A stretch of DNA of 64,000 nt from Ignavibacteria bacterium (GTDB taxonomy: Bacteria; Bacteroidota; Ignavibacteria; Ignavibacteriales; Melioribacteraceae), in contig JAAYAN010000036.1 in the NCBI GenBank assembly GCA_012719345.1, positions 62,001 to 126,000 of the forward strand. Direction: 5' to 3'. Below the pieces are notes generated by a model. The model was not told where the DNA came from and searched no databases. It saw only the letters and a list, made by a program, of their open reading frames with translations. A program made the position numbers and the translations under genes. Below are positions 16,227-30,904 of this stretch, piece by piece; positions within the stretch are counted from its first letter, which is position 1; each line of letters starts with the position of its first letter.

Positions 16227-18098
16227 TTGAAGGAAACTTTAAGATTGTTCAAATACAAAACTTATTTCCGAATACTAACCTATTTAAAGCCGTATTGGTT
16301 TAATCTGTTTCTATCAATAATCTGCACAATCTTATTTGCACTTTTTAACGGCTTATCAGTTTACCTTTCAATACCGCTTTTAGGTACACTTTTTAATGAA
16401 ACTCAAGAGGCCCAACAGTCGGAACTCACTACACAATCTGATAATGCATTTTTACCGGATTTTATTGATCAGCCTTTGAATAACATTACCAGTTTTTTTG
16501 CGAATGCAATATTATCAGGTTCAAAGTTTGATGTTTTATCTAAAATATGTGTAGTTATTCTAATTGCCTTTTTATTAAAGAATATTTTTGGATACCTGCA
16601 GGCATATTTTTTATCTTTTGTCGAACAAAATTTTGTTAAAGATTTCCGTGATGATGCATTTAGCCATTTACATTCACTTCCGCTAAGTTACTTTAAAAAT
16701 GAAAAAACCGGTCATTTAATTTCGAAAATAACTAACGATGCAGCGGTTGTTCAAAGCATTTCGCCTGTGTTTTTTAATTTAGTACGCGAACCGCTTACAA
16801 TAGCCGTTTTTATTGGAATTGCTTTGTCAATAAGCTGGCAACTTACAGTATTTTCATTTCTCATTCTCCCGTTTTCTCTTCTTATAATTGGTTGGATTGG
16901 ACTCAAGATTAAGAAGCAAAGTTTAAACTTACAAGAAAAGATGGCGGGTATAACCTCTATTTTAGAAGAAACAATAAACGGTGTTAAAATTATTAAAGCA
17001 TTCGGGATGGAAAATTATGAAATTAATAAGTTCAAAAATGAAACCACCAAATACTCAAAAATAATTTTAAAGATGGTAAGGATAAAAAATGCAGCATCCC
17101 CTATAACAGAATTTTTAAGTGTTTTAATTGGTGTAATAATCATTTTTTTGGGAGGGAAATTAGTACTTACAACTCAAGAACTTAAAGCCAGCGAATTTTT
17201 AGGATTACTTTTTGCTATTTTCCAGATAATGCCGCCAATTAAAGAACTAAGTAACGTAAATAATATGATTCAAGTTTCCAGCGCTGCTGCCGAGCGGATT
17301 TTTGAAATAGTTGATACCACGCCGGATATTCAAGATGCTATAAATCCATCTGAAAAAGAAACTCTCGAAAATAGTATTGAATTTAAAAATGTAAGTTTTA
17401 TTTACTCCGATTCTGATGACAAAGTTTTAGATGATGTTTCCTTTAAAGTAAACAAAGGGCAAATTATTGCTCTTGTAGGAAGCAGCGGAGCAGGAAAAAC
17501 CACGCTGGTCGATCTCATTCCGCGATTTTACGACCCTTCGGACGGAGCTGTTTTAATTGATGGTACCGATATACGCGATATGAAAATTGAAAATCTGCGA
17601 AGACTTATGGGAATTGTTACGCAGGAAACAGTTTTGTTTAACGAATCCGTGAAAAATAATATTTCCTACGGAACCGGAAATGTTAGTGATGAGGATATTA
17701 TTAACGCGGCAAAAGCTGCAAATGCGCACGATTTTATAATGGAATTGCCGGAGGGGTATAATCAGATTATCGGAGAAAGGGGCACAAAACTTTCCGGCGG
17801 GCAGCGTCAAAGACTTTCGATTGCCCGGGCGCTTTTAAAAAATCCGCCGATTATGATTTTTGACGAGGCAACTTCTGCACTCGATAACGAATCGGAAGTA
17901 TTAGTTCAGCAGGCAATTGAAAGATTAATGAAAGAAAGAACAACTTTTGTAATAGCACACAGATTAAGTACAATCCGAAATGCAGATAGAATTCTTGTGC
18001 TTGATCACGGGAAAATAATTCAGGATGGATCGCACGACGAATTAATTAAAAACGAAAAAGGTTTATACAAAAAACTTTACGATATGCAATTCCGGTAA
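16227..18098 (+). CDS. MsbA-like ABC exporter (permease fused to ATPase)
   Basis: A 623-residue half-transporter. Membrane helices occupy about 25-350 and the nucleotide-binding domain about 385-620. Walker A is GSSGAGKTT (about 418-426), the ABC signature is LSGGQRQR, Walker B/D-loop is MIFDEATSALD, and the H-loop is in FVIAHRLST. The closest recognisable group is MsbA/lipid A-core flippases and related multidrug exporters. Position between an EptA-like enzyme and an O-antigen ligase supports a lipid A or glycolipid substrate, but a general lipid or drug exporter cannot be excluded. The start is uncertain: TTG 16227 overlaps the only purine-rich site (GAAGGA), and TTG 16245 lies about ten bases beyond it. 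Confidence 0.87.
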   Translation: MKETLRLFKYKTYFRILTYLKPYWFNLFLSIICTILFALFNGLSVYLSIPLLGTLFNETQEAQQSELTTQSDNAFLPDFIDQPLNNITSFFANAILSGSKFDVLSKICVVILIAFLLKNIFGYLQAYFLSFVEQNFVKDFRDDAFSHLHSLPLSYFKNEKTGHLISKITNDAAVVQSISPVFFNLVREPLTIAVFIGIALSISWQLTVFSFLILPFSLLIIGWIGLKIKKQSLNLQEKMAGITSILEETINGVKIIKAFGMENYEINKFKNETTKYSKIILKMVRIKNAASPITEFLSVLIGVIIIFLGGKLVLTTQELKASEFLGLLFAIFQIMPPIKELSNVNNMIQVSSAAAERIFEIVDTTPDIQDAINPSEKETLENSIEFKNVSFIYSDSDDKVLDDVSFKVNKGQIIALVGSSGAGKTTLVDLIPRFYDPSDGAVLIDGTDIRDMKIENLRRLMGIVTQETVLFNESVKNNISYGTGNVSDEDIINAAKAANAHDFIMELPEGYNQIIGERGTKLSGGQRQRLSIARALLKNPPIMIFDEATSALDNESEVLVQQAIERLMKERTTFVIAHRLSTIRNADRILVLDHGKIIQDGSHDELIKNEKGLYKKLYDMQFR

Positions 18099-18100
18099 AT

Positions 18101-19252
18101 ATGGAAGAATGTAAAATAAAAGTTAACGAAAAATTGGTTGTGTCAGTAATTGCAGGATTACTTTGCAGCTTTGTAATTTCTCTTCTTCTTTTTCAGGTTT
18201 TTGCAGTGCTGCTTTTTATTTTCTGGCTCTTTGAACCTTGGGTGAAAAAATTAAAGACATTCGACAGTTTTGTATATATCATCTTTGTGTTCGGAATTAT
18301 CCGGGCGGCTTCAATTTTCTTTTCAGAATATCCCGAGGAAAGTTATGAGGCATTTGCACGGGAAAGTCTTTTTTACACAACTTTTATCTCGCTGAATTAT
18401 TATCTGAAAAGAATTGAAAGAAAGAAATTTTCTTTATTGTACAAAATATTTATAAATGCCGGTGTAGTTGTTTCTGCAATCGGGATTATTCAGTTTGCTG
18501 CCGGTTTTGTTCACCGGGCACAAGGATTGTCTTTCGGTTATTCAACATTTTCTTTATACCTTTTATTTGTTTTTGTTTTTCTTATTAACAGCCGGCAGTT
18601 TAATAGTGAAAAAGAGAAATATTTCTGGGCGATTAAATCGGGGATTATACTTTCCGGAATAATTACTTCACTTGGTCGGACAAATATTGTAATTGCAATT
18701 TTAGCAGGGATTGTCAGTTTGATAATTCGAAGAGAAAAGGTAAAATTTGTATTTGTAATGGTAATTGTTGTGGTTTTAATTTCTCTCGGTTCATTCTCCG
18801 AAAACAAAAGCGAAATTCAAAACAGAATCAGCCAGCCTGCTGCTCTTTCGGACAGGGATATTATTTGGAATGGATTCAAGGAGATTTATGACGAGCATCC
18901 TGTTTTAGGTTTTGGTCCGCGAACATTCAGTAAAGTATTCCCTTTTAAAGAGCAGTTTGCTGATAAGGGAATCAATAGCTGGCATAACGAATTTTTCCAA
19001 TTATATATTGAAAGCGGGATATTTGCTTTTTTAACGGTATTGTTCTTTTATTTTTTCATTTTTACTGATGCTATAAAAAAGTTAAAATTGTATGAAAAAG
19101 GCGAAACGAAAGATATAATTTTTGCAATGCTGTTTCTAATCCCATCCTTAATACTTGCTTCGGTAACTGACTTTTTATGGGCAAGCATAATTATTTCAGC
19201 ATTGATTGCAGTGTCAACAAATATTTATATCGGAATAAAACAAAGTAACTAA
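18101..19252 (+). CDS. O-antigen ligase / polymerase family membrane protein
   Basis: A 383-residue protein with about ten hydrophobic segments. The large periplasmic loop carries GFGPRTFSKVF and then SWHNEFFQLYIESGI, the H-N-x-x-x-Q-x-x-x-E-x-G pattern of the Wzy_C/WaaL family. These proteins join O-antigen to lipid A-core or polymerise repeat units using polyprenyl-linked substrates. Ligase versus polymerase cannot be decided. It starts two bases after the ABC transporter stop, so it shares that transcript. Its stop overlaps the stop of the convergent sugar-transferase gene by four bases. Confidence 0.85.
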   Translation: MEECKIKVNEKLVVSVIAGLLCSFVISLLLFQVFAVLLFIFWLFEPWVKKLKTFDSFVYIIFVFGIIRAASIFFSEYPEESYEAFARESLFYTTFISLNYYLKRIERKKFSLLYKIFINAGVVVSAIGIIQFAAGFVHRAQGLSFGYSTFSLYLLFVFVFLINSRQFNSEKEKYFWAIKSGIILSGIITSLGRTNIVIAILAGIVSLIIRREKVKFVFVMVIVVVLISLGSFSENKSEIQNRISQPAALSDRDIIWNGFKEIYDEHPVLGFGPRTFSKVFPFKEQFADKGINSWHNEFFQLYIESGIFAFLTVLFFYFFIFTDAIKKLKLYEKGETKDIIFAMLFLIPSLILASVTDFLWASIIISALIAVSTNIYIGIKQSN

Positions 19253-20646
19253 TTCCCTGTGTTCCTTCCGGTAAAAACCTGCCACACGGTTTCAAAAATT
19301 ATCTGGAAATCCAGCCAGATGCTCCAGTTTTCGATATACCAGATATCATATTCAATACGTTTTTTGGTGCGGATTTTTTTCTCTTCTTCATCATCAACAT
19401 CGCCGCGAAGACCGTGGATTTGAGCCCAGCCTGTAATTCCGGGTAAAACTCTGTGACGAAGCCGTATTTCATCTACTATTCCGCTGTAAGCGTTTTGAAA
19501 GGGAATTGCATGCGGGCGCGGACCGACAATGGACATATCGCCTTTTAAAACATTTATAAACTGAGGAATTTCATCAAGGTTAGTTTTGCGTAAAATCTTC
19601 CCGATTTTTGTAATCCTGTCATCATCGTCTGTAACCGGTTTATCCGAATTTTTATCAGCGCTTGCCGCTAAATTCATTGTCCGGAATTTGTAGCATTTAA
19701 ATATCTGGTTATTAAAACCGACTCTTTCCTGAATAAAAAATGCTGGACCTTTCGAAGAAATTCTAATTAAAATTGATATAACCGGAAGAAGCCACCACAA
19801 AATAAAAACTGCCGCTAAACCGGAAAATAAAATATCAACCGTACGTTTAAGCCATCGCCACTGAATTTCTTCAAGAGGATTGTTTCTGACAGTGATTACA
19901 GGAAAATTTCCGAAAAGATTTATTTTGAATTTATTCGAATGCAGTTTGGAATAATCGGGGATGATATATGATTTAACGGCTTTTCTGTCGCAAATTTTCA
20001 TTAATGAATCGAGCTGCGAGTATTGGGTTACTGGCAGCGCGATTACAACATCGTCAATATTTTTTGATGCAATTGTTTCTTCAAGCACTTCGGTTTTTCC
20101 CAGAACATCTGCGCTATTTTCAAAATCATCCAAAAATCCGGTAAAAGAATATCCGAAACTTGGGTTTGAAAGAAGAAAATCCTTAAACTCGCAGCCAAGT
20201 TCGCCTGCGCCGATAATAAGAATTTTTCGCAACGAAATATCTTTTTTACGATATTTTTTTTGTAGAACACGGAAAACAATTTCCTTAAAAATTATTAGAA
20301 CAAAAGTGAGAGAAGTATTTATAAAAATAAAATTACGCGTAAAAAGATTTTCCTTAAATAAGAAAAGGAATAAAACATCGGTAATTAAAATCAGCAGTAC
20401 AGATTTAAAAATAATTGTTGAATGAACCGAAGCAGAGCGCGTGTAAAAATCCTCATAAATTTTTAACGGATTTGAAGCTGCAAGCCATACAAGATTTTCG
20501 ATTGCGAGAAGGATGAAAATAAAATTCCGCTCGAGCAAAATATCAGCGGATTGCGCCATAATTCCAGCTGCAATAAATGCAAAATTAAGGATTAAGAGAT
20601 CGGTAAATTTGCGGAAATTATGAATTGAACGGCTGTTTATTATCAT
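19249..20646 (-). CDS. Undecaprenyl-phosphate sugar-1-phosphate transferase (WbaP-like)
   Basis: A 465-residue initiating transferase for surface glycan assembly. Four N-terminal membrane helices (about 12-115) lead to a CoA-binding-like Rossmann domain (KILIIGAGELGCEF) and then the membrane-associated bacterial sugar transferase domain from about residue 265. Key motifs are KRTVDILFS, ERVGFNNQIFKCYKFRTM, TDDDDRITKIGKILRKTNLDEIPQ and VGPRPHA. It transfers a hexose-1-phosphate to undecaprenyl phosphate at the inner membrane, the first step of an O-antigen or exopolysaccharide unit. The sugar (glucose or galactose) is not predictable. It follows the GT4 gene by four bases on the same strand, so the two form an operon. 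Confidence 0.93.
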   Translation of the reverse strand: MIINSRSIHNFRKFTDLLILNFAFIAAGIMAQSADILLERNFIFILLAIENLVWLAASNPLKIYEDFYTRSASVHSTIIFKSVLLILITDVLFLFLFKENLFTRNFIFINTSLTFVLIIFKEIVFRVLQKKYRKKDISLRKILIIGAGELGCEFKDFLLSNPSFGYSFTGFLDDFENSADVLGKTEVLEETIASKNIDDVVIALPVTQYSQLDSLMKICDRKAVKSYIIPDYSKLHSNKFKINLFGNFPVITVRNNPLEEIQWRWLKRTVDILFSGLAAVFILWWLLPVISILIRISSKGPAFFIQERVGFNNQIFKCYKFRTMNLAASADKNSDKPVTDDDDRITKIGKILRKTNLDEIPQFINVLKGDMSIVGPRPHAIPFQNAYSGIVDEIRLRHRVLPGITGWAQIHGLRGDVDDEEEKKIRTKKRIEYDIWYIENWSIWLDFQIIFETVWQVFTGRNTGN

Positions 20647-20650
20647 AGTT

Positions 20651-21766
20651 TTATCTTTTAAACACCGAGTATTTTTCTTGAATGAAATTCGAGATATTTT
20701 GTTCGAATGTTTTGCGCGAAAATATTGAAGCGTGCCGGCTTATTAAATCAGGGGCGTATAAATTCGAATCTTCAAAATTCTTAACCGCTTGAATTACCGA
20801 CTCGGCAGTTTGCTCGCTGAATAAAATTCCAGTTTTACCGTCAATTACAGTTTCGCTGGCTCCACCAATTTTATAAGCAATTACGGGTGTTCCGCAGGAC
20901 TGGGCTTCTACTATTGTAATCCCGAAATCCTCTTCGGCTGCAAAAACAAAGGCTTTTGCTTTCTGAATCAATTTAATCAATTCGTTTTGATTTTGATGAC
21001 CTAAAATTTCAATGTTTGATGAGGCTAAGTTTTTAATCTTCTTCTCATCAGGTCCCGAACCGACTACCAAAAGTTTTTTATCCGGCATTTTAGAAAATGC
21101 TTCAACAACTAAATCAACTTTCTTATAAGGAACAAACCTTGAAATAATTAAATAATAATCATCTTTTTCAGAAACACACTTAAATAAGTCAGTATCCACC
21201 GGAGGAAAAATAACTTCAGCATCGCGGTTGTAAATCTTCTTAATCCTTTTTGCAACGTGACTGGAATTTGCAATAAAATAATCAACGCGGTTAGCGGTTG
21301 ATAAGTCCCACATTCTTATTTTGTGAAGCGCATATTTTGCTATCAATCCTTTCAATCCTTTATTTAATCCACTCTCGTTTATGTATTGATGATATAAATC
21401 CCAAGCATAACGGATGGGAGTGTGGCAATAGCAGATATGAAGCTGGTTGGCGTTTGAAAGAACGCCTTTAGCAAATGCGTGCGAACTTGAAATTATGAGC
21501 TCGTAGCCCGAAATATCAAGCTGCTCAACAGCAAAAGGAAACAGCGGAAAATAGTGACGGTGAAATTTTGAAGCTAACGGCAGATTTTGAATGAAACTGG
21601 TGAAAGGTTTTTTATTATTCAGTATAATTTTTCTTTCTTCGGGCGATTGTAAAAAATCTGCAATTGTAAAAATATCCGATTCCGGAAAAAGATTGTTAAA
21701 CGATTCCACACACTTTTCGGAACCCATATAAATTGTAAACCAATCGTGAACTATTGCTGTTTTCAC
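20651..21766 (-). CDS. Glycosyltransferase family 4 (WbaZ-like)
   Basis: A 371-residue GT-B enzyme. The N-terminal AIVHDWFTIYMGSEK and the central CHTPIRYAWDLYHQYI resemble WbaZ and related mannosyltransferases. The C-terminal Rossmann domain has ISRFVPYKKVDLVVEAF and the nucleotide-sugar motif AEEDFGITIVEAQSCGTPVIAY, the E-x7-E pattern of GT4. It is cytoplasmic and probably adds the second sugar to the lipid-linked unit begun by the downstream sugar transferase. A mannosyl donor is suggested only by similarity. It is the first gene of a two-gene minus-strand unit; its promoter must lie in the divergent 94-base gap shared with the GT2 at 21861. Confidence 0.87.
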   Translation of the reverse strand: MKTAIVHDWFTIYMGSEKCVESFNNLFPESDIFTIADFLQSPEERKIILNNKKPFTSFIQNLPLASKFHRHYFPLFPFAVEQLDISGYELIISSSHAFAKGVLSNANQLHICYCHTPIRYAWDLYHQYINESGLNKGLKGLIAKYALHKIRMWDLSTANRVDYFIANSSHVAKRIKKIYNRDAEVIFPPVDTDLFKCVSEKDDYYLIISRFVPYKKVDLVVEAFSKMPDKKLLVVGSGPDEKKIKNLASSNIEILGHQNQNELIKLIQKAKAFVFAAEEDFGITIVEAQSCGTPVIAYKIGGASETVIDGKTGILFSEQTAESVIQAVKNFEDSNLYAPDLISRHASIFSRKTFEQNISNFIQEKYSVFKR

Positions 21767-21860: not shown

Positions 21861-22634
21861 TTGATAACAGTTGTAACCATAACATACAATAACTTCGAAG
21901 AATTGGTCAAAACTCTTAACAGTGTCCCAAAATCGGCAGATGTTGAATCAGTTGTTGTTAACGGAGGGAATTGTCCGAAAACATTTGAATTTTTGAAAAA
22001 TTACAATGGAATTGTAATTAATGAAAAGGATAAAGGAATATCGGATGCATTCAATAAAGGGATTAAAAAATCTTCCGGCGAATTTATAATGTTTCTCAAC
22101 AGCGGCGATATTTTAATTGATTCATCATATCCCGTAAATGCAGAAAAAATATTTCGTGATAATCAGGAAATTTCATTTATTCATTCGAATTTTATTTTTG
22201 AAGATAACATCGGTGGCAGACTTTTGATGAAGCCCATAATGAAAAATATCGGGAGAGGTATGCCTTATTTTCATCCGACAATGATTGTGCGGAAAAGCGT
22301 TTTCAGCAAGACCGGATTTTTCGATACCGATTATAAAATTGCAATGGATTACGATTTTGCCATAAAACTTGATAAACACGGAATAAAAGGATATTATGTT
22401 TCCGATAAAGCGCCTGTAGTAATGGATGGTACCGGAAAATCGGCAGAGCAGGAATATACAGCAATAATGGAATGCTGGAGGGCTTTAAGAAAAAATAATT
22501 ATTTGAGTGTTACTGTTATTTTAAATTTCGGCGTACGAATTGTTTTATATTATTTCAGAAGAATTTTAGTTGCAGCCGGATTATCATCACTTTTAAGTAA
22601 ACTGAAAAAAATCAAGCATAAAAGCGCCGTTTGA
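21861..22634 (+). CDS. Glycosyltransferase family 2
   Basis: A 257-residue GT-A protein. It begins MITVVTITYNNFEELVKTLNS, and the GISDAFNKGIKKSSGEFIMFLNSGD segment (about 70-92) contains a donor-binding motif in which the usual DxD is replaced by NSGD, as in several GT2 members of the PGL/WcaA type. A HPTMIVRKSVF segment then a DYDFAIKL segment fit the acceptor region. The donor and acceptor are unknown. It begins with TTG 21861 and has no strong Shine-Dalgarno; no ATG fits the family start. Its 3' end overlaps the convergent GT2 gene by 23 bases. Confidence 0.85.
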   Translation: MITVVTITYNNFEELVKTLNSVPKSADVESVVVNGGNCPKTFEFLKNYNGIVINEKDKGISDAFNKGIKKSSGEFIMFLNSGDILIDSSYPVNAEKIFRDNQEISFIHSNFIFEDNIGGRLLMKPIMKNIGRGMPYFHPTMIVRKSVFSKTGFFDTDYKIAMDYDFAIKLDKHGIKGYYVSDKAPVVMDGTGKSAEQEYTAIMECWRALRKNNYLSVTVILNFGVRIVLYYFRRILVAAGLSSLLSKLKKIKHKSAV

Positions 22635-23493
22635 GGTGAATCATTCCTTTTATTAAACCGTAAAATCTGCCGGCTAAAGCTGCCAGATTTGTAAGCACAA
22701 AAGAAGGATTTAATTTAATAAGAGCGCGGAAAAATTGAAGAAAGGGTACAAAGAACATTTCAAAAAACTCATAAAGAACAATAGGTTTTTGTTTTAGGAT
22801 AAGCCATTTCCAAACAAGCGCGCCTTTTCCTATCCCATATTTAAACGATTTCCTGAAACCTTTTTTTAATGATTCATTAAACGGAGGAACGTGATACACA
22901 ATCAATTCCGGGAAAAATTCCATCGGGATTTTATTAAAAAAGGCTTCCCAGCAAAAATCAGTTTCTTCGCCGCTTCCGAAATATGATCCGGCGCCGAAGG
23001 TTTCATCAAACCTTCCTAATTGATTAAAAATATCTTTGTGAACCACAAAATTAGAGCCCATCAAATTTTTTGTATTCCTGAAAAATTTAAGACTTCCGCC
23101 TTTTTTATGACGCAGGCTGTAAAATTCATTTGTATCGTCACGTACAATGCTGCCGGCAAAAATTTTAAGCTGCTTGTTTTGCTCAATTAAATTTTTCAGA
23201 ATTTCGGAATAATTTTCGCAGGGGTAACCGTCGTCATCGCAAAAGAAAATCCATTCGGTATCTTCAGGAATTTTAAGACAATTGCGCGCAGCGGATACAG
23301 AATTTTTATCAGATTTCTGTCTTTCGAAAATTGAATTTCCGGTTATTCTTTCGGGCAGCTCAAGTTCTGTGTCATTCTGGTCTATTAAAATAACTTTTAA
23401 CGGACTTATCTTTTGGTTTAATGAAGCTTGTAAACTTCTTTCAACAAGTTCTGCCGGGCGGTTTATTGTATTTGTAGCGATAATGTATTTCAT
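22612..23493 (-). CDS. Glycosyltransferase family 2 (rhamnosyltransferase-like)
   Basis: A 293-residue GT-A protein. The N-terminus IIATNTINRPAELVERSL leads to a classic metal-binding CDDDGYP motif near residue 91. SGEETDFCWEAF and a late hydrophobic, basic helix region suggest membrane association. It is a cytoplasmic enzyme of surface-glycan synthesis with unknown donor. It is transcribed alone on the minus strand, divergent from the flippase gene and convergent, with a 23-base overlap, with the GT2 at 21861. Antisense transcription through that overlap is possible. Confidence 0.86.
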   Translation of the reverse strand: MKYIIATNTINRPAELVERSLQASLNQKISPLKVILIDQNDTELELPERITGNSIFERQKSDKNSVSAARNCLKIPEDTEWIFFCDDDGYPCENYSEILKNLIEQNKQLKIFAGSIVRDDTNEFYSLRHKKGGSLKFFRNTKNLMGSNFVVHKDIFNQLGRFDETFGAGSYFGSGEETDFCWEAFFNKIPMEFFPELIVYHVPPFNESLKKGFRKSFKYGIGKGALVWKWLILKQKPIVLYEFFEMFFVPFLQFFRALIKLNPSFVLTNLAALAGRFYGLIKGMIHLKRRFYA

Positions 23494-23618
23494 AATTCCA
23501 AAAATAAGATATTTTAATCTTTCAGTAACTAAAAAGTTTTAGGAATTAGCTATATTACTAATTAAGATTGAACTATTTACTGAACTCCGTTCAAATATAT
23601 AAAATTGGACATTGTTTT

Positions 23619-24995
23619 ATGCTTTCTGGCATAATTAAAATTATAAAAGAAAATGATTTCTTTTGCAAGCTTATCCCTGAAAATGGCAGAAGCCGAAATG
23701 TGATAAAACATATTGCAGGCTCCTTTTTTGTAAAGATCGGTTCTGCTGCGGTAGGGCTTATTTTGGTTCCGCTTACAATATCGTATGTTAATACAGTTAC
23801 TTATGGGATTTGGTTAACTCTCAGTTCAATTGTCCTTTGGATCAGCTATTTTGATATTGGAATTGGAAACGGATTAAGAAATAAATTTGCGGAGCTTAAG
23901 GCAAGTGAAAGCAATATTATTATCAAGAAATATATCAGTACTGCGTATGCTTTGTTTATTATTTTGTTTTTATGTATCTGGCTGGCGGTATTTCTGTTAT
24001 CAGAAAATATAAGCTGGGCTGCTATATTAAATGCACCATCATATATGAATAATGAATTGAAAATATCAGGTTTAATAATAACCGGTTTTTTTTGTTTGCA
24101 GATGGTACTTAAAGTGATAACTACCGTATTAACTGCTGATCAGAAGCCTGCATTTGCTTCGTTTATTGATTTTATCGGACAATTTCTTATTCTTGCATCC
24201 ATATTCGTATTAACTTTATATACGAAAGGTTCAATTCTTTATCTTGCCACTGCTGCCGGTTTAATGCCGGTTTTAGTATTACTGGGTTCAACAATTATTC
24301 TTTTCAAATCGAGATATAATCTTTATATACCATCATTCAGGATGATTGATTTCTCCTGTGCAAGAGATATTATGGGACTCGGAATAAAGTTTTTCCTGAT
24401 ACAAATATCGGCTTTGATAATTTATCAAACAAGTAATATAATAATCACTCATATAAGCGGTCCCGAAGATGTAACTGTTTATAATATAGCTTTTAAATAT
24501 TTCAGTCTTTCTTCAATGCTTTTTTTGATTTTGATAACTCCTTTCTGGTCAGCTTTTACCGAAGCATATTACAAAAAGGAATATAAATGGATGAAATCCG
24601 CATTGAAAAAACTAAGACAGATATTTTATTTGTTTATAATATTGATAACAGTGATGTTAGTAATTTCTCCGTATTTTTATGAAATCTGGATTGGCAATAA
24701 AATTCATATTGGAATATCGATTTCAATTTTAATGTCTTTTCTTTTTCTTTTGATGATATGGAATAATTTGCATTCCTATATTCTAAATGGAACAGGACGA
24801 ATTAAACTTCAGCTTTATGTAGCAGTTGCTGGATCAGCTGTTTTTATCCCGCTTGCTGTTTTGCTTGGGAGGTTTTATGGAATGCAGGGTGTAATTGCGG
24901 CATCAATTATTGTTAATTTGGTAAGTGCTTTTTACTCACCATTTCAGGTTAATTTGATTGTAGGAAATAGAGCTAAAGGTATTTGGAACAGCTGA
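23619..24995 (+). CDS. Polysaccharide flippase, Wzx-like (MATE/MOP fold)
   Basis: About 458 residues with some twelve hydrophobic segments. It has the pattern of oligosaccharide flippases: a short cytoplasmic start, then VKIGSAAVGLILVPLTISYV and NTVTYGIWLTLSSI in the first helices. It would move the undecaprenyl-linked repeat unit across the inner membrane. A TTG at 23568 is in frame and adds 17 residues, but ATG 23619 gives a more normal N-terminus and is preferred; neither has a strong Shine-Dalgarno. The gene heads a run of five tightly packed genes through wecE, coupled to the next by an ATGA overlap. Confidence 0.87.
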   Translation: MLSGIIKIIKENDFFCKLIPENGRSRNVIKHIAGSFFVKIGSAAVGLILVPLTISYVNTVTYGIWLTLSSIVLWISYFDIGIGNGLRNKFAELKASESNIIIKKYISTAYALFIILFLCIWLAVFLLSENISWAAILNAPSYMNNELKISGLIITGFFCLQMVLKVITTVLTADQKPAFASFIDFIGQFLILASIFVLTLYTKGSILYLATAAGLMPVLVLLGSTIILFKSRYNLYIPSFRMIDFSCARDIMGLGIKFFLIQISALIIYQTSNIIITHISGPEDVTVYNIAFKYFSLSSMLFLILITPFWSAFTEAYYKKEYKWMKSALKKLRQIFYLFIILITVMLVISPYFYEIWIGNKIHIGISISILMSFLFLLMIWNNLHSYILNGTGRIKLQLYVAVAGSAVFIPLAVLLGRFYGMQGVIAASIIVNLVSAFYSPFQVNLIVGNRAKGIWNS

Positions 24996-26266
24996 TGAAA
25001 AATGTTTTATTAATAACTGGTCAAGATATTACCAAATCTTCAGGAATTATTGCATTTGATGTTCTGAATGCTTTGAAAGACCGGAATAATGTAAAAATTC
25101 TTACTAATGTTAAAGCGGGTGAGGAAAACCAATTCGTAATAAGGTTTAAACCCAAATATCCTATTTTAATAATCATTGCAAAAATTATTAAAAATATCGA
25201 AGAAAAATTCAGAAAAAGAAATCCGAAATACTACATGGCAAGTGTAGATATGTTTTTTACCAATATTTGGTCAGATGGAATATTAAAAGCACTGCCTTTT
25301 AAACCGGATATTATTTTTTATCTTCATCCGGTTAACTATTTAACTATGCGGGATTTACATATTGTTAGCAAAAAATGCGAGGCGCCGTTATTAATATATA
25401 TGATGGATATGGCAATTCTTACTGGCGGCTGCCATTATGCCTGGGATTGCAAAGGTTATAAATCGGATTGCGGAAAATGTCCCGGATTGCATTCATCTAA
25501 TTCTTACGATAAAACTTCAGAAGTTATTAAGCTTAAAAAAAAATATATCAAAGATTCAGAGATTTATCCTGTTGCGGCTTCTGCCTGGCAATGGAATCAG
25601 CTTAATGAAAGTTCTGTTTTTGAAAATCAGAAAAAATATAAAATTATGTCGCCCACAAACGAAACGCTGTTTTATCCGGGTGATAAAGTCAAAGAAAGAG
25701 AATTTCTCGGTATTCCTAAAAATAAAAAAATTATCTTTTTCGGCGCAGTTTATGAACACGAAGAAAGAAAAGGATTTGCTCAACTTTTAGAGATAATAAA
25801 AATTTTGTATAAAATATCCGGTGAAAAAGAAAAAAGTGAAATACATTTTATTATTGCCGGAAAATTTTCAGAAAAATTTGAGAAGGAAATTCCATTTGGA
25901 AAAACACAAATCGGATTTTTACCTCATGATAAATTAAGCGCTGCATATCGTGCCGCAGATATTTATTTAAATTCCTCAATAGAAGATTCAGGTCCTACTA
26001 TGATAAACCAGGCAGTTATGAGCGGCACTCCGGTTGTATGTTTTGAAATGGGTGTTGCGCCTGATTTAGTAATTAATGGAGTAACAGGTTTTAAAGTTGA
26101 TTTGTATGATTGCCGTGCTTTGGCTGAAGCATTGTTGAAATTATTAAGGTTATCGGAAGATGAATATATGAAGATGTCTGAAAATTGCAGAAATCTTGCA
26201 GTACAAACCTGCAGCCATAAAACAATATCCGAGGAATTTCAGAAAATAATCGATGAATTAACTTAA
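24995..26266 (+). CDS. Glycosyltransferase family 4
   Basis: About 423 residues of GT-B fold. The N-terminal domain begins NVLLITGQDITKSSG and carries a distinctive cysteine-rich stretch, HYAWDCKGYKSDCGKCPG (about 149-166), seen in some WbcM/WcaC-like GT4 enzymes. The C-terminal domain has IFFGAVYEHEERKGFAQLL and SSIEDSGPTMINQAVMSGTPVV, the E-x7-E-type donor site with NQAVMSGTP. The start is taken at ATG 24995, which overlaps the flippase stop in ATGA; an in-frame TTG at 24983 is less likely. The donor sugar is unknown. Confidence 0.88.
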   Translation: MKNVLLITGQDITKSSGIIAFDVLNALKDRNNVKILTNVKAGEENQFVIRFKPKYPILIIIAKIIKNIEEKFRKRNPKYYMASVDMFFTNIWSDGILKALPFKPDIIFYLHPVNYLTMRDLHIVSKKCEAPLLIYMMDMAILTGGCHYAWDCKGYKSDCGKCPGLHSSNSYDKTSEVIKLKKKYIKDSEIYPVAASAWQWNQLNESSVFENQKKYKIMSPTNETLFYPGDKVKEREFLGIPKNKKIIFFGAVYEHEERKGFAQLLEIIKILYKISGEKEKSEIHFIIAGKFSEKFEKEIPFGKTQIGFLPHDKLSAAYRAADIYLNSSIEDSGPTMINQAVMSGTPVVCFEMGVAPDLVINGVTGFKVDLYDCRALAEALLKLLRLSEDEYMKMSENCRNLAVQTCSHKTISEEFQKIIDELT

Positions 26267-26276
26267 AATTAAATTT

Positions 26277-26975
26277 ATGAAAAAAAATATTGCTATACTC
26301 CAATCCAATTATATTCCGTGGAAGGGATACTTCGACCTGATTGCGCGTTCAGATGAATTTATTCTGTATGATGAAATGCAATACACAAAAAACGACTGGC
26401 GGAACAGGAACAAGATAAAAACATTAGCAGGAACAATGTGGTTAACAATTCCGGTTTCAGTAAAAAGTCTTCATCAGAAAATTAACGAAACCAGGATAGC
26501 AGATAAAAGCTGGATAAAAAAACATAAAAATGCAATAATTACAAATTACTCAAAGGCTTTGTATTATAAGGAATTCAGTGGAAAGATTTTTTCTATATAC
26601 GAAGAATTGGAAGAAGAGGAATGTCTCAGCAAAATAAATCAGAAATTTATTAACGAAATTTGCATTTTGCTGGGAATAAAAACGAAAATTATGCGTTCGG
26701 AAGATTATAATCTCATTGAAGGGAAAACCGAAAGATTGGTTGATTTATGCAAGCAAGCCGGTGCCACCGAGTATCTTTCCGGACCAGCGGCAAAGGGATA
26801 TCTGAAGGAAAAATTATTTGAGGAAGCCGGAATTAATGTAACCTGGATGGATTATTCGGGATATTCTGAATACAGCCAGCTCTTTCTTCCATTTGATCAC
26901 TATGTTAGTATTATAGATTTAATTTTAAATGAAGGCAGCAATTCAAGTAATTACTTAAAATATGTGAATAAATAA
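26277..26975 (+). CDS. WbqC-family protein
   Basis: A 232-residue protein with the signature start of the WbqC family, IAILQSNYIPWKGYFDLI, then EFILYDEMQYTKNDWRNRN. Near the end it has TEYLSGPAAKGYL. WbqC-like proteins recur in O-antigen and capsule loci and near amino-sugar genes; their reaction is not established, although an aminoacyl or acyl modification of an amino sugar has been suggested from context. Its position directly before an N-acyltransferase and a WecE aminotransferase supports a role in modifying a 4-amino sugar (inference). A one-base overlap (TAATG) couples it to the next gene. Confidence 0.9.
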   Translation: MKKNIAILQSNYIPWKGYFDLIARSDEFILYDEMQYTKNDWRNRNKIKTLAGTMWLTIPVSVKSLHQKINETRIADKSWIKKHKNAIITNYSKALYYKEFSGKIFSIYEELEEEECLSKINQKFINEICILLGIKTKIMRSEDYNLIEGKTERLVDLCKQAGATEYLSGPAAKGYLKEKLFEEAGINVTWMDYSGYSEYSQLFLPFDHYVSIIDLILNEGSNSSNYLKYVNK

Positions 26976-27598
26976 TGAATAAACTGGCAATAATTGGCAG
27001 CGGAGAGCTGGGAAGGCAAATAAAACACTTAGCGGCAGTTCAAGGTAAATATTCTTTTGCCGGATTTTTTGATGATTTTGCTGAACCTGATAAAACTCCC
27101 GGTCTGCTTGGAAAAATTGACGATATCCCTGCTTTATTTAGAAAAGGAAAATTTGATTTCCTTTTTTCGGGAATTGGTTACAAACATATGATAAAAAGAA
27201 AAGAAATCTTTCAGTCTCTAGCAAAAAATCACGAATTTGGAACCATACTTCATCCGAGTGCGGTTATTGATTTCACTTCAAAAATAGGTATGGGCTGCGC
27301 TATATATCCCGGTGTTGTTATTGACAAAGATGCAGTGATAGGGGAGAATGTGCTGCTTAATAATGCCGCAGTAATTTCACATACCAGCATAATAGGATCG
27401 CATTCATTTATCTCTCCGGCAACAGCGATAGCAGGATTTTCAGAGATAGGAGAAAGCGTTTTTCTTGGAATAGGAACAATATTAATTGATAATATAAAAA
27501 TTTCGTCTTGCGTAAGCACAGGGGCGGGGACAGTTGTAATAAAAAATATCTCAGAGCCCGGGCTATATGCAGGAAATCCAGCGAGGTTTATAAAATGA
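26975..27598 (+). CDS. NeuD/PglD-type sugar-nucleotide O/N-acyltransferase
   Basis: A 207-residue trimeric left-handed beta-helix acyltransferase. The N-terminal Rossmann-like half has IIGSGELGRQIKHLA (about 5-19). The C-terminal half is built of hexapeptide repeats (SKIGMGCAIYPGVVIDKDAVIGENVLL and similar) and ends GLYAGNPARFIK. Known relatives are NeuD (sialic acid O-acetyltransferase) and PglD (UDP-4-amino-sugar N-acetyltransferase). Because it lies immediately before a 4-aminotransferase, acylation of the 4-amino group of a dTDP- or UDP-dideoxyhexose is the likely job (inference). Its stop overlaps the wecE start in ATGA. Confidence 0.9.
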   Translation: MNKLAIIGSGELGRQIKHLAAVQGKYSFAGFFDDFAEPDKTPGLLGKIDDIPALFRKGKFDFLFSGIGYKHMIKRKEIFQSLAKNHEFGTILHPSAVIDFTSKIGMGCAIYPGVVIDKDAVIGENVLLNNAAVISHTSIIGSHSFISPATAIAGFSEIGESVFLGIGTILIDNIKISSCVSTGAGTVVIKNISEPGLYAGNPARFIK

Positions 27599-28728
27599 AG
27601 GAAATTCCATTTAACAAGCCGTATCTTACAGGAAAGGAGATGCATTATATCTATCAAGCTGTATATAGCGGAAAAATTTCCGGAAATGGGATTCTTACAA
27701 AAAAATGCAATTCTTTTTTCGAAAAGAGGTATGGATTTAAAAAAGCCCTGCTTACCACCTCTTGCACAGATGCATTAGAAATGTGCGCAATGCTTGCAGA
27801 TATAAAATCCGGTGATGAGGTTATAATTCCTTCTTATACTTTTGTATCTACTGCACTTGCTTTTGTAAGACAAGGCGCAAAAATTGTTTTTGCAGACAGC
27901 CGAACCGATCATCCCGGGATAGATGAAGATAAAATCGAATCATTAATTTCATCAAAAACTAAAGCAATTGTTCCCGTCCATTATGCTGGTGTTGCCTGCG
28001 ATATGGATAAAATAATGGCTTTAGCCGATAAGTATAATCTTATAGTTATTGAAGATGCGGCTCAAGCGGTTGAATCGTATTATAAAGGTAAACCTCTTGG
28101 GAGCATCGGTCATCTTTCGGCTTTTTCATTTCACGAGACAAAGAATATAAACTCAGGCGAGGGAGGATTGTTAGTTATAAATGATGAAAAATTTATACGA
28201 AGATCAGAGATAATCTGGGAAAAGGGAACAAACAGAGCTGAATTTTTCAGGGGTGAAGTAAATAAATACGGATGGGTAGATATCGGTTCATCATTTCTGC
28301 CGTCTGAAATTATTGCAGCTTATCTCTATGCACAGATTGAAAACCTTGAAATGATCCAGAATAAAAGAAAATTCTTATGGGAGTGTTACTACAACGAATT
28401 GAGAGATTTAAGTTTGAAAGGAAAAATTAAAGTTCCATTTGTTCCCGACTATGCAACCAATAACGGACATATGTTTTATGTTATATGTTCAACTCTTGAA
28501 CAACGAAATTCAATTATTACGAGACTGAAAGAAAATTCTATACTGGCAGTTTTTCATTATATCTCTCTTCACAGTTCAGAATACTATGCAAAATATTACA
28601 GCGGCTGCCAGTTAAAAATGTCTGATTATTATACTGATTGTCTTTTAAGGTTGCCAATGTACTATGAGTTGGATGAAACAGATATAAAACGAATTTGCAA
28701 AATTATTAGGGATTTGTTAGAAGAATAA
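27595..28728 (+). CDS. wecE: dTDP-4-dehydro-6-deoxyhexose 4-aminotransferase (WecE/RffA-like)
   Basis: A 377-residue PLP enzyme of the DegT/DnrJ/EryC1/StrS family. It is close to E. coli RffA along its whole length: PFNKPYLTGKE at the start, TSCTDALEMCA, DEVIIPSYTFVSTALAF, VPVHYAGVACDMDKIMALA, VIEDAAQAV and then SFHETKNINSGEGG, whose Lys (about 182) would bind PLP. RffA makes dTDP-4-amino-4,6-dideoxygalactose. ATG 27595 is chosen because it overlaps the previous stop in ATGA; an upstream in-frame ATG at 27508 lies well inside that gene and is unlikely. No RmlA/RmlB supplying the keto sugar is in view. Confidence 0.9.
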   Translation: MKEIPFNKPYLTGKEMHYIYQAVYSGKISGNGILTKKCNSFFEKRYGFKKALLTTSCTDALEMCAMLADIKSGDEVIIPSYTFVSTALAFVRQGAKIVFADSRTDHPGIDEDKIESLISSKTKAIVPVHYAGVACDMDKIMALADKYNLIVIEDAAQAVESYYKGKPLGSIGHLSAFSFHETKNINSGEGGLLVINDEKFIRRSEIIWEKGTNRAEFFRGEVNKYGWVDIGSSFLPSEIIAAYLYAQIENLEMIQNKRKFLWECYYNELRDLSLKGKIKVPFVPDYATNNGHMFYVICSTLEQRNSIITRLKENSILAVFHYISLHSSEYYAKYYSGCQLKMSDYYTDCLLRLPMYYELDETDIKRICKIIRDLLEE

Positions 28729-28751
28729 AAAAGGGCAGAAATAATCTGCCC
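28727..28751 (-). terminator. Intrinsic terminator of the lectin gene
   Basis: Read on the minus strand, GGGCAGA (28751-28745) pairs with TCTGCCC (28739-28733) around a five-base A/T loop, followed by a run of six T (28732-28727). It lies 13 bases after the lectin stop. On the plus strand it has no T tract, but the stem may still help to end wecE transcripts. Confidence 0.85.
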
Positions 28752-28763
28752 CATTAAATGACT

Positions 28764-29126
28764 TTATTTACCTGCTGAAACTGCAAGCCAGCTTCCGCCT
28801 ATAGCATAAATTTTTGTATCTCCCCAAGTTTTAATAGTAATCATAAAACCGTCTCGGGAAACTGATTTTGCAACAACATCATATCTAAGATTTGCACTTT
28901 TATCAGATTCCAGCAAACTAACAGATAGAATAATGTCAGGTTTTACATCAAAACCTTTTGGGAAACTTACTTCAATGGAATAAGTTCTGTCACCAGTACC
29001 GCTTGCTAAAGTATAATTCTGCGATGCTGAACTGGCAGAAAAACTACCGGATTGTACTTCTTGGGCAAACGTGCTTACCATACCCATTAAAAAAAATAAC
29101 GCAATTACTAATCCTGCTTTTTTCAT
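28764..29126 (-). CDS. Secreted H-type lectin-domain protein
   Basis: A 120-residue protein with a signal peptide: basic MKKAG start, hydrophobic core and a cleavage site after STFA (about residue 21). The mature part is one domain. The strands SIEVSFPKGFDVKPDIILSV, then LESDKSANLRYDVVA, SRDGFMITIKTW and GGSWLAVSAGK match the H-type lectin pattern (F-x-x-P-x-V/I, then D, R, V, then G-F-x-v/i, then W-x-A near the end). H-type lectins are trimeric or hexameric beta-sandwich GalNAc/glycan binders, best known from snails and Dictyostelium. There is a near-perfect AGGAGG Shine-Dalgarno, an intergenic region on each side and its own terminator, so it is monocistronic and probably well expressed. 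The ligand is unknown. Confidence 0.72.
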   Translation of the reverse strand: MKKAGLVIALFFLMGMVSTFAQEVQSGSFSASSASQNYTLASGTGDRTYSIEVSFPKGFDVKPDIILSVSLLESDKSANLRYDVVAKSVSRDGFMITIKTWGDTKIYAIGGSWLAVSAGK

Positions 29127-29252
29127 TTTACCTCCTGAATTGTGATTGATTAAGATAAATATGTAAATTTTAGAAGTCTGATTTCGAAATTGTATTTTTT
29201 GATGAAATAATTTAATAAAAAAATTGTAAAATTGTTCAGTAAAAAATAAAAA

Positions 29253-30026
29253 ATGATTTTTATGAACTTATCATCGATTCTTATTGCAAAAAATGAAGAG
29301 CAAAATATCGAAAAATGCATTAAAAGTTTAGTTAATTGCATTGATGAAATAAATGTATTTATCGATGACTTATCAGATGACAGAACATTTGAAATTGCTG
29401 ATAAGTTTAACAATGTTAAATTAAGAAAAATTAAATGGCAGGGGTTTTCGGAAACAAAACAAGAAGCATTGAAATTTGTTACAAACGACTGGGTTTTATG
29501 GATTGATGCGGATGAAGTTTTAACTGAAAAGTTATCGGAAGAACTTACTAAATTTAAGGATAATATTCCTCTGCATTCTGTTTATTCAGTTCCACGGAAA
29601 GCTTTTTTTTTAGGAAAATGGATAAAACATTGCGGCTGGTATCCGGATAGGGTGAACAGACTTTTTAATAAGAATGAGATAAAATTTTCTCAAAGTTCGG
29701 TGCACGAATTTTTGCACTATAAAGGGCAGACAGGAAAACTAAAAAACGATCTTCTGCATTTTACCGACCCGGATATATTTCATTATTTTGAGAAGTTTAA
29801 TTTGTATACAAGTCTCGCTGCTGAGGAGCTTAATAAAAAGAAAAGAGCTTTTAAAATATCCGATATTCTTCTGAGACCTGCATTTACTTTTTTTAAGATG
29901 TTTATTATAAAAAAGGGTTTTCTTGATGGAATTCAAGGATTTATATTATGTGTTTTTTCATCTGCATATGTATTTACAAAATATTGCAAATTATGGGAAT
30001 TGAATAAAAAGGGAATTCAAATATGA
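29253..30026 (+). CDS. Glycosyltransferase family 2, WaaE/KdtX-like
   Basis: A 257-residue GT-A enzyme. LSSILIAKNEEQNIEKCIKS starts the fold, VLWIDADEVL (about 86-95) carries the metal-binding DAD, and VNRLFNKNEIKFSQSSVHEFL is typical of the WaaE/KdtX group, which adds a glucose to the LPS inner core. Two ATGs (29253, 29262) fit the start and neither has a visible Shine-Dalgarno. It overlaps nadK by ATGA, so the two are translationally coupled. LPS-core or glycan extension is the likely role; the acceptor is inferred. Confidence 0.87.
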   Translation: MIFMNLSSILIAKNEEQNIEKCIKSLVNCIDEINVFIDDLSDDRTFEIADKFNNVKLRKIKWQGFSETKQEALKFVTNDWVLWIDADEVLTEKLSEELTKFKDNIPLHSVYSVPRKAFFLGKWIKHCGWYPDRVNRLFNKNEIKFSQSSVHEFLHYKGQTGKLKNDLLHFTDPDIFHYFEKFNLYTSLAAEELNKKKRAFKISDILLRPAFTFFKMFIIKKGFLDGIQGFILCVFSSAYVFTKYCKLWELNKKGIQI

Positions 30027-30904
30027 CCATAGGTATTGTTCCGAACTTGGCAAAAAACAATGTTTTGGAAATTCTTCAGAGACTGGTTCTGAAATTAGCA
30101 GAATTTAAGTTCAATATTCTTATTCAAGAAAGCACTGAACTGCCTGATGATTTCCGTGATGGAATCCGAGGTTTTACAGATTTTGTAAATTATTCTGAAT
30201 TCTATTCGCAAAGCGAAATTGTTTTTACCTTAGGCGGCGACGGTACAATGCTAAGCACAGCATTTGAGTCGAGAAACTATGATGTTCCTCTTGTAGGCAT
30301 AAATTTGGGAAAGCTTGGTTTTCTTGCAGAAATAAATCTGGATAATATTGGAAAATTTATTGATGATATAAAAAAGGGTAAAACAATAATTGAAGAAAGG
30401 ATTACGCTTGAAGCTTTTTGCACGGAATGCCCGCTAACAAAAATGTTTGCCGTTAACGATATTGTTATAGATAAGGGAATGTGGCCCAAAATGATAGAAA
30501 TTACGATTAAGGTTGATGATGAATATGTATCAACGTTTTCGGCTGACGGAGTAATTGTTGCAACCCCTACCGGTTCAACAGGTTATTCTTTATCAACTGG
30601 AGGTCCAATTGTTTTTCCAAAAGCAAAATCAATTATTATCAGTCCCGTTGCTCCGCACACTTTAACAATGCGTCCGCTTGTTTTATCTTGCGAACAGAAA
30701 ATTAATATTACGGTAAATTCCCAGAATAAAAGTGTTCAGGTAAATTGCGACGGACAGAGAGTAAATCAATTCCGCTCTCCAGCATCTCTTCAGATAGGTA
30801 AAAGTTCAAGACCAATGAGGCTGCTTCATTCAAAAGATAACAGTTATTTTAGTATTTTACGCGAAAAGTTATTCTGGGGATTGGATGTAAGGCAGAATAG
30901 TTGA
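30023..30904 (+). CDS. nadK: NAD kinase
   Basis: A 293-residue protein of the PpnK family. It has the GGDGTML motif (about residues 72-78), where the Asp is catalytic, and the diagnostic FSADGVIVATPTGSTGYSLS segment near residue 175. A GINLGKLGFLAEI segment lies between them. It phosphorylates NAD to NADP in the cytoplasm. It is coupled by an ATGA overlap to a glycosyltransferase gene and ends 11 bases before the convergent recG stop, with no terminator visible between the two genes. Confidence 0.97.
   Translation: MTIGIVPNLAKNNVLEILQRLVLKLAEFKFNILIQESTELPDDFRDGIRGFTDFVNYSEFYSQSEIVFTLGGDGTMLSTAFESRNYDVPLVGINLGKLGFLAEINLDNIGKFIDDIKKGKTIIEERITLEAFCTECPLTKMFAVNDIVIDKGMWPKMIEITIKVDDEYVSTFSADGVIVATPTGSTGYSLSTGGPIVFPKAKSIIISPVAPHTLTMRPLVLSCEQKINITVNSQNKSVQVNCDGQRVNQFRSPASLQIGKSSRPMRLLHSKDNSYFSILREKLFWGLDVRQNS

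Follow-up and report, generated by a model that had tools for sequence, protein, structure and literature searches.

The window, by which we mean the whole 64,000-nucleotide stretch of Ignavibacteria DNA analysed here, carries inside a block of surface-glycan genes a gene whose product is, judging from its sequence, a genuine single-domain H-type lectin. In related bacteria, the lectin repeatedly accompanies expanded glycan cassettes in a slot that is bounded, as here, by the genes for an MsbA-like ABC transporter and for NAD kinase. We suggest, with about as much confidence as doubt, that the protein is an exported lectin that would be retained in the cell envelope and would bind the cell's own Wzy-type polysaccharide.

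The open reading frame of 120 amino acids lies exactly where an earlier sequence-only reading had placed it, and its features are listed with those of the surrounding block in Table 1. That reading had also proposed a signal peptide with a 99-residue mature protein, a strong Shine-Dalgarno sequence and a terminator of the gene's own, and all three were recovered. The N-terminus reads as MKK, a hydrophobic core and TFA/QEV, and cleavage after A21 would leave 99 residues. Both A21 and Q22 recur in at least 90% of the 28 homologues that were aligned, which fits cleavage at that site and a mature lectin of that length. The terminator-like hairpin is found on the lectin strand 3' of the stop codon, where one was detected against 0.2 expected in shuffled sequences. 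Six promoter-like sites were counted in 28600-29400 against 4.1 in shuffles, and thus there is no evidence of the lectin gene's own promoter. The gene is antiparallel to both neighbours, the end of the DegT gene (28728) being 36 bp off and the start of the GT2 gene (29253) 127 bp off. The statement that it interrupts plus-strand glycan genes on the opposite strand holds for these two flanking genes, but the genes at 19249-20646, 20651-21766 and 22612-23493 are also on the minus strand. No Rfam match and no tRNA gene were found in the window.

Table 1. The lectin gene, its signals and the surface-glycan block around it (positions in the window)
Feature	Position	Strand	Evidence
MsbA-like ABC transporter, left edge of variable slot	16227..18098	+	PF00664 + PF00005; ortholog edge in relatives
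Wzy/O-antigen ligase-like	18101..19252	+	PF04932 58.3 bits
Initiating sugar-phosphate transferase	19249..20646	-	PF02397 218 bits
GT4 glycosyltransferase	20651..21766	-	PF00534
GT2 glycosyltransferase	21861..22634	+	PF00535
GT2 glycosyltransferase	22612..23493	-	PF00535 26.6 bits
Wzx-like flippase (weak)	23568..24995	+	PF01943 27.0 bits, under cut-off 28.2
GT4 glycosyltransferase	24983..26266	+	PF00534
WbqC-like protein	26277..26975	+	PF08889 259 bits
PglD/hexapeptide acyltransferase	26975..27598	+	PF17836, PF00132
DegT-type sugar aminotransferase	27592..28728	+	PF01041 279.8 bits
Intrinsic-terminator-like hairpin, T-run beyond	28732..28752	-	8 pairs, 5 G-C
H-type lectin gene, 120 aa	28764..29126	-	PF09458 70.4 bits; Helix pomatia agglutinin E 1.2e-7
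H_lectin domain, residues 51-116	28779..28976	-	hmmscan coordinates
Predicted signal peptide, residues 1-21, cleavage A21/Q22	29064..29126	-	by reading + homologue conservation
Shine-Dalgarno AGGAGG	29131..29136	-	4 nt upstream of lectin ATG, read from sequence
GT2 glycosyltransferase, conserved right edge	29253..30026	+	PF00535; same GT2-NADK order in relatives
NAD kinase, right edge of slot	30023..30904	+	PF20143, PF01513; positions in relatives

The assignment to the H-type lectins, which the sequence-only reading had made from a strand pattern, was borne out by a profile search. The protein matched Pfam H_lectin (PF09458) with 70.4 bits, the cut-off being 24 (E 1.4e-19), over profile positions 2-67 of 67, i.e. 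66 of 67 positions, and it was the only H_lectin match in the source genome. When PDB sequences were searched with phmmer, the agglutinins of Helix pomatia (HPA) and Helix aspersa (E 1.2e-7), the discoidins and SLL-2 were found, in agreement with the profile, while NCBIfam gave no family at E up to 0.1. The H-type lectin fold is moderately supported by AlphaFold2 models, which were built with only two sequences. The full-length model has the six strands that had been anticipated, and the 11 best PDB matches to it are without exception H-type lectins (E 0.045-0.25 for a model of mean pLDDT only 55.9). On the contrary, the model of the mature region (pLDDT 66.2) had no PDB match at E 0.001 or better; HPA, at Z 5.5, was tied with unrelated beta sandwiches at Z about 5-6, such as the periplasmic lysozyme inhibitor PliG, and in model comparisons of this kind such values are the level expected of a common beta-sandwich arrangement. 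Since the full-length model is weak and the mature-region model yields no clear winner, the claim of family and fold rests on sequence.

The position inside a glycan locus is confirmed by the Wzy_C, Bac_transf, GT4, GT2, WbqC, PglD and DegT families around the lectin. Of the families expected in a Wzx/Wzy-type locus, those of Wzy, the initiating transferase and the glycosyltransferases are present above cut-off, namely PF04932, PF02397, PF00534 twice and PF00535 three times; the Wzx-like protein is just under its cut-off, and among six flippase candidates from related loci, four reached flippase families above cut-off. The genes for the WbqC-like protein, the PglD-type acyltransferase and the DegT aminotransferase are consecutive at 26277-28728, and this run suggests an N-acylated amino sugar in the glycan. 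We placed the start of the DegT gene at 27592, and the listed open frame begins at 27508.

To survey the slot, both edge genes were sought in 57 genomes of the family (G000-G056), and the 38 genomes with the MsbA-like ABC transporter and NAD kinase genes on one contig were tabulated; the other 19, in which one edge gene was not detected or the two were on separate contigs, were left out (G004, G013, G018, G021, G025-G029, G033, G039, G042, G045, G047 and G052-G056). The interval ranges from 24 bp to 11.9 kb. The lectin is inside it in all six genomes with an interval of at least 8 kb and in 3 of 32 with a shorter one (Fisher 3.0e-5). With one genome per genus, the same cut gives 5/5 against 2/22 (p 2.6e-4), and a 5-kb cut gives 6/7 against 3/31 (p 2.0e-4). 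Because the 8-kb cut was chosen after the gaps were seen and the genomes share ancestry, these p values describe rather than prove. Place and strand of the lectin vary within the slot. It adjoins the flippase gene in three loci (L061, L063 and L075), is found beside GT2c in several, and stands between Wzy and a capsule-synthesis-type (Capsule_synth) gene in L066 and L078. In three of the left-out genomes (G013, G027 and G055), the lectin is next to slot genes. Two of them, G013 and G027, have a divided block whose NAD-kinase part retains the lectin, together with neighbours that are flippase-like to the eye and reach no Pfam family. Linkage to glycan genes was also seen by distance: among the matches listed, 7 of 64 lectins have a Bac_transf gene no more than 10 kb away, where at most 1.05 would be expected (P 8e-5 under independence; 123 marker rows, with weak partial rows left out of observed and expected alike). 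In the same seven genomes, a Wzy_C gene is likewise at most 10 kb from the lectin, three of the seven being one genus.

Two kinds of slot count against an own-glycan ligand. First, G019 has a partial cassette (5.9 kb) of a Wzy-like gene, two GT4 genes and Bac_transf, with neither flippase nor lectin. Second, G005, G031 and G046 have the lectin in the slot without a glycan cassette, in a gap of about 0.5 kb, where the lectin is the only open reading frame of at least 90 amino acids between the edge genes (loci L089, L095 and L088). Lectin-less slots that were opened contain GT2 alone (G030 and G001) or Wzy and GT2 (G034).

Homologues are also found far from any such slot. A lectin match (E up to 1e-3) is present in 40 of 97 sampled relatives, the source genome included, and in 27 of 61 genera. 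In a sample of the phylum, 24 of 395 genomes have a match above the family cut-off, and 23 of these belong to two families of the same order. By setting, the 68 lectin reading frames comprise 13 in the slot group, 9 in a second group, 33 single-domain forms elsewhere and 13 fusions to an OmpA domain. The second group (L080, L081, L094, L096, L097, L111, L112, L113 and L124) has RmlD-like, PfkB, GT4 and UDP-glucose dehydrogenase genes nearby, which speaks for a link to glycans, and many of the 33 stand by metabolic genes (class-IV aminotransferase, aromatic amino acid lyase/HutH-like, amylase). As most single-domain homologues outside the window's group are by unrelated genes, the family at large needs no nearby glycan locus. 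Proximity to a possible ligand locus, which the sequence-only reading had pointed out, is strengthened by the slot survey for the window's own lineage, but most homologues elsewhere in the order have no glycan genes beside them. These observations bear on the alternative that the ABC-NADK interval simply tolerates insertions, such that the lectin and the glycan genes both landed there and the ligand is unrelated to the locus. This would explain why the lectin is alone in the slot in three genomes and why lectins of the same family stand beside unrelated housekeeping genes at most other loci, but it sits poorly with the finding that six of six large cassettes, across five genera, contain the lectin at varying place and strand, and we regard it as rather unlikely.

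The homologue tree (116 columns) has poor resolution. On it, the glycan-slot rows, 13 in number, require four changes and the OmpA rows six, at least two of which are forced by starred branches; on such a tree, one origin of the glycan-slot lectins is possible. A near-identical copy of the lectin (95%) is present in the public MAG 'Bacteroidetes bacterium UR.bin223'. Two lectin copies with one in-frame TGA each (G051:C250:10150-10518 and G034:C7:26460-26660) are apparently decaying, one H-type lectin (L090:7969-8439) has a proline- and lysine-rich tail and no OmpA domain, and frames of about 900 amino acids in another family of the phylum (G329:C52 and G435:C13) give sub-threshold H_lectin matches. 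A viral origin was considered and rejected: when viral_contigs were searched, the window lectin gave 2 pattern matches and query A2 gave 57, none of which was confirmed, 50,697 phage records were without a match, and PHROG was without a match for the window lectin. An origin from mobile elements was likewise rejected, with only three plasmid records found, all from Paracoccus and all matching in part; in two, the protein carries the annotation H-type lectin domain protein. A Paracoccus plasmid H-type lectin gene (L130:5884-6267) is near a Hint-domain gene and a hydrolase gene.

The best clue to where these lectins work is given, on sequence grounds, by the OmpA fusions, and it comes from relatives, not from the window protein itself. 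The 13 fused homologues have 240-255 amino acids with a C-terminal OmpA-like domain (PF00691), and both domains were confirmed by Pfam in all six tested. They are encoded at L068, L070, L086, L102, L103 and L105 (two in tandem at each of the last two), L104, L106, L107, L108 and L109. A regular expression for what we take to be the peptidoglycan-binding motif of OmpA domains matched 12 of the 13. They carry a signal peptide by reading, and a lipobox-like motif is absent from them as from all 68 homologue rows (regular expression). OmpA domains place their proteins in the periplasm, and the fused homologues indicate that at least part of the lectin family is probably held there. A single-domain lectin accompanies the fusion in 10 of the 11 family genomes that have one and is present in 14 of the 46 that do not (Fisher 3.6e-4; the genomes are related). 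In seven loci (L086, L103, L104, L106, L107, L108 and L109), a large C25-type peptidase is encoded less than 4 kb from the fused lectin; that of L086 (6349-10317) has Peptidase_C25 and FlgD_ig domains and resembles a type IX secretion sortase.

For the window lectin, Pfam gave no secretion-tail family at E up to 10. By analogy with its OmpA-fused relatives, and with lipobox and secretion tail both absent, we infer residence in the envelope or periplasm. The protein had been described as secreted; its export signal stands, but in a Gram-negative-type cell a signal peptide shows export, not release outside. Adhesion and matrix cross-linking, both suggested in the same reading, are conjecture, as is release outside; the OmpA-fused relatives point to the periplasm instead. 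An alternative is that the lectin reaches the outside and, as an adhesin or agglutinin, binds foreign glycans of bacteria, hosts, particles or predators, as is thought for the H-type lectins of snails and slime moulds. GalNAc-type glycans are ligands of known H-type lectins, which are believed to aggregate bacteria (PMC11377244), and the structurally similar foot domain of the R pyocin is proposed to bind core LPS (PMC6363177). However, the window protein has no secretion-tail family in Pfam, its OmpA-fused relatives point inward, and its being kept in the same glycan slot by several related bacteria hints at the handling of own sugars rather than foreign ones. We consider such an outward role distinctly unlikely.

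The sugar site was compared with that of HPA, which we take to consist of Asp26, Arg63, Trp83, His84 and Tyr89 with roles in GalNAc binding. The alignment of lectin residues 47-116 with HPA 29-98 is free of gaps. R81, W101 and Y107 correspond to Arg63, Trp83 and Tyr89, while G102 stands in place of His84, and Asp26 is beyond the alignment. In the 68 homologue rows (65 distinct), R47 and W101 are found in 68/68, R81 in 63/68 and D103 in 52/68, and position 107 is variable, being Tyr in only 16 rows. Conservation of this kind indicates that a sugar site in the family is likely. Since His84 is replaced by Gly and position 107 varies, the specificity of HPA cannot be assumed. A further alternative is that a peptide or a partner protein takes the place of the sugar at this site, as CofJ does in the H-type domain of the CofB pilus tip (PMC12442223). 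The lost His84 and the variable position 107 could be counted in its favour, but the almost invariant R81 and W101 and the glycan-locus association speak against it, and we think it very unlikely.

Based on these observations, our preferred reading, a lectin for the cell's own polysaccharide, would run as follows. The single-domain lectin would be exported by the Sec pathway and would stay in the envelope, either as a periplasmic protein or at the outer surface of the outer membrane. There it would bind a sugar of the polysaccharide (O-antigen or capsule) made by the surrounding Wzy-type block, which we infer to be its ligand. Small oligomers, presumably trimers as in known H-type lectins, would bind several repeat units at once, and the bound lectin may hold the glycan, organise it or gather it, either while it is being assembled or afterwards. 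The ligand may, speculatively, be an N-acylated amino sugar, because the DegT aminotransferase gene adjoins that for the PglD-type acyltransferase. A wider version, which we put forward tentatively and think rather unlikely, is that self-glycan lectins occur throughout the lineage, soluble forms travelling with Wzy-type cassettes and being paired in many genomes with the peptidoglycan-anchored H-lectin/OmpA fusions, so that the two together would form a periplasmic scaffold to capture or tether the cell's own polysaccharide during export.

H-type lectins in bacteria are already known, and it is the setting in a surface-glycan slot that is new. The window lectin shares its Pfam family with Helix pomatia and Helix aspersa agglutinin (2ccv and 4q56), SLL-2 (3wmp) and the C-terminal domains of discoidins I and II; unlike these, it is bacterial, has no cysteine and is encoded in a surface-glycan locus, and Gly stands for His84 of HPA. 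The view that invertebrates and slime moulds are the main source of such lectins is too narrow, because bacterial members are in print (Burkholderia thailandensis BTH_II1638 and the CofB tip of the E. coli CFA/III pilus) and in RefSeq, which annotates H-type lectins in Paracoccus (e.g. WP_010400911). These proteins have an H-type lectin domain like the window lectin. The Paracoccus match has 37% identity over only 63% of the query, its gene being next to those for a hydrolase and an ABC transporter, and CofB, unlike the window lectin, is a minor pilin. The 13 fused homologues share a C-terminal OmpA domain with peptidoglycan-anchored proteins of the OmpA family, whereas the window protein has none. 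To our knowledge, none of the Paracoccus, Burkholderia and CofB proteins is known from an O-antigen locus. In searches of open-licence literature, which leaves most subscription journals outside, we found no report of an H-lectin/OmpA fusion and none that places an H-type lectin among O-antigen genes. The R pyocin fibre foot and the discoidin-like domains of phage tailspikes, proposed LPS binders, have a similar fold by published DALI comparisons, and this is a structural likeness only.

Lectins have usually been studied as readers of foreign sugars. More examples may be sought by looking for H_lectin domains that are encoded within or beside Wzy-type cassettes or that are joined to an OmpA domain. 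If our reading is true, a lectin encoded in the block for the cell's own polysaccharide, together with peptidoglycan-anchored relatives, would be a candidate member of a class, so far little known, of envelope proteins that handle glycans.
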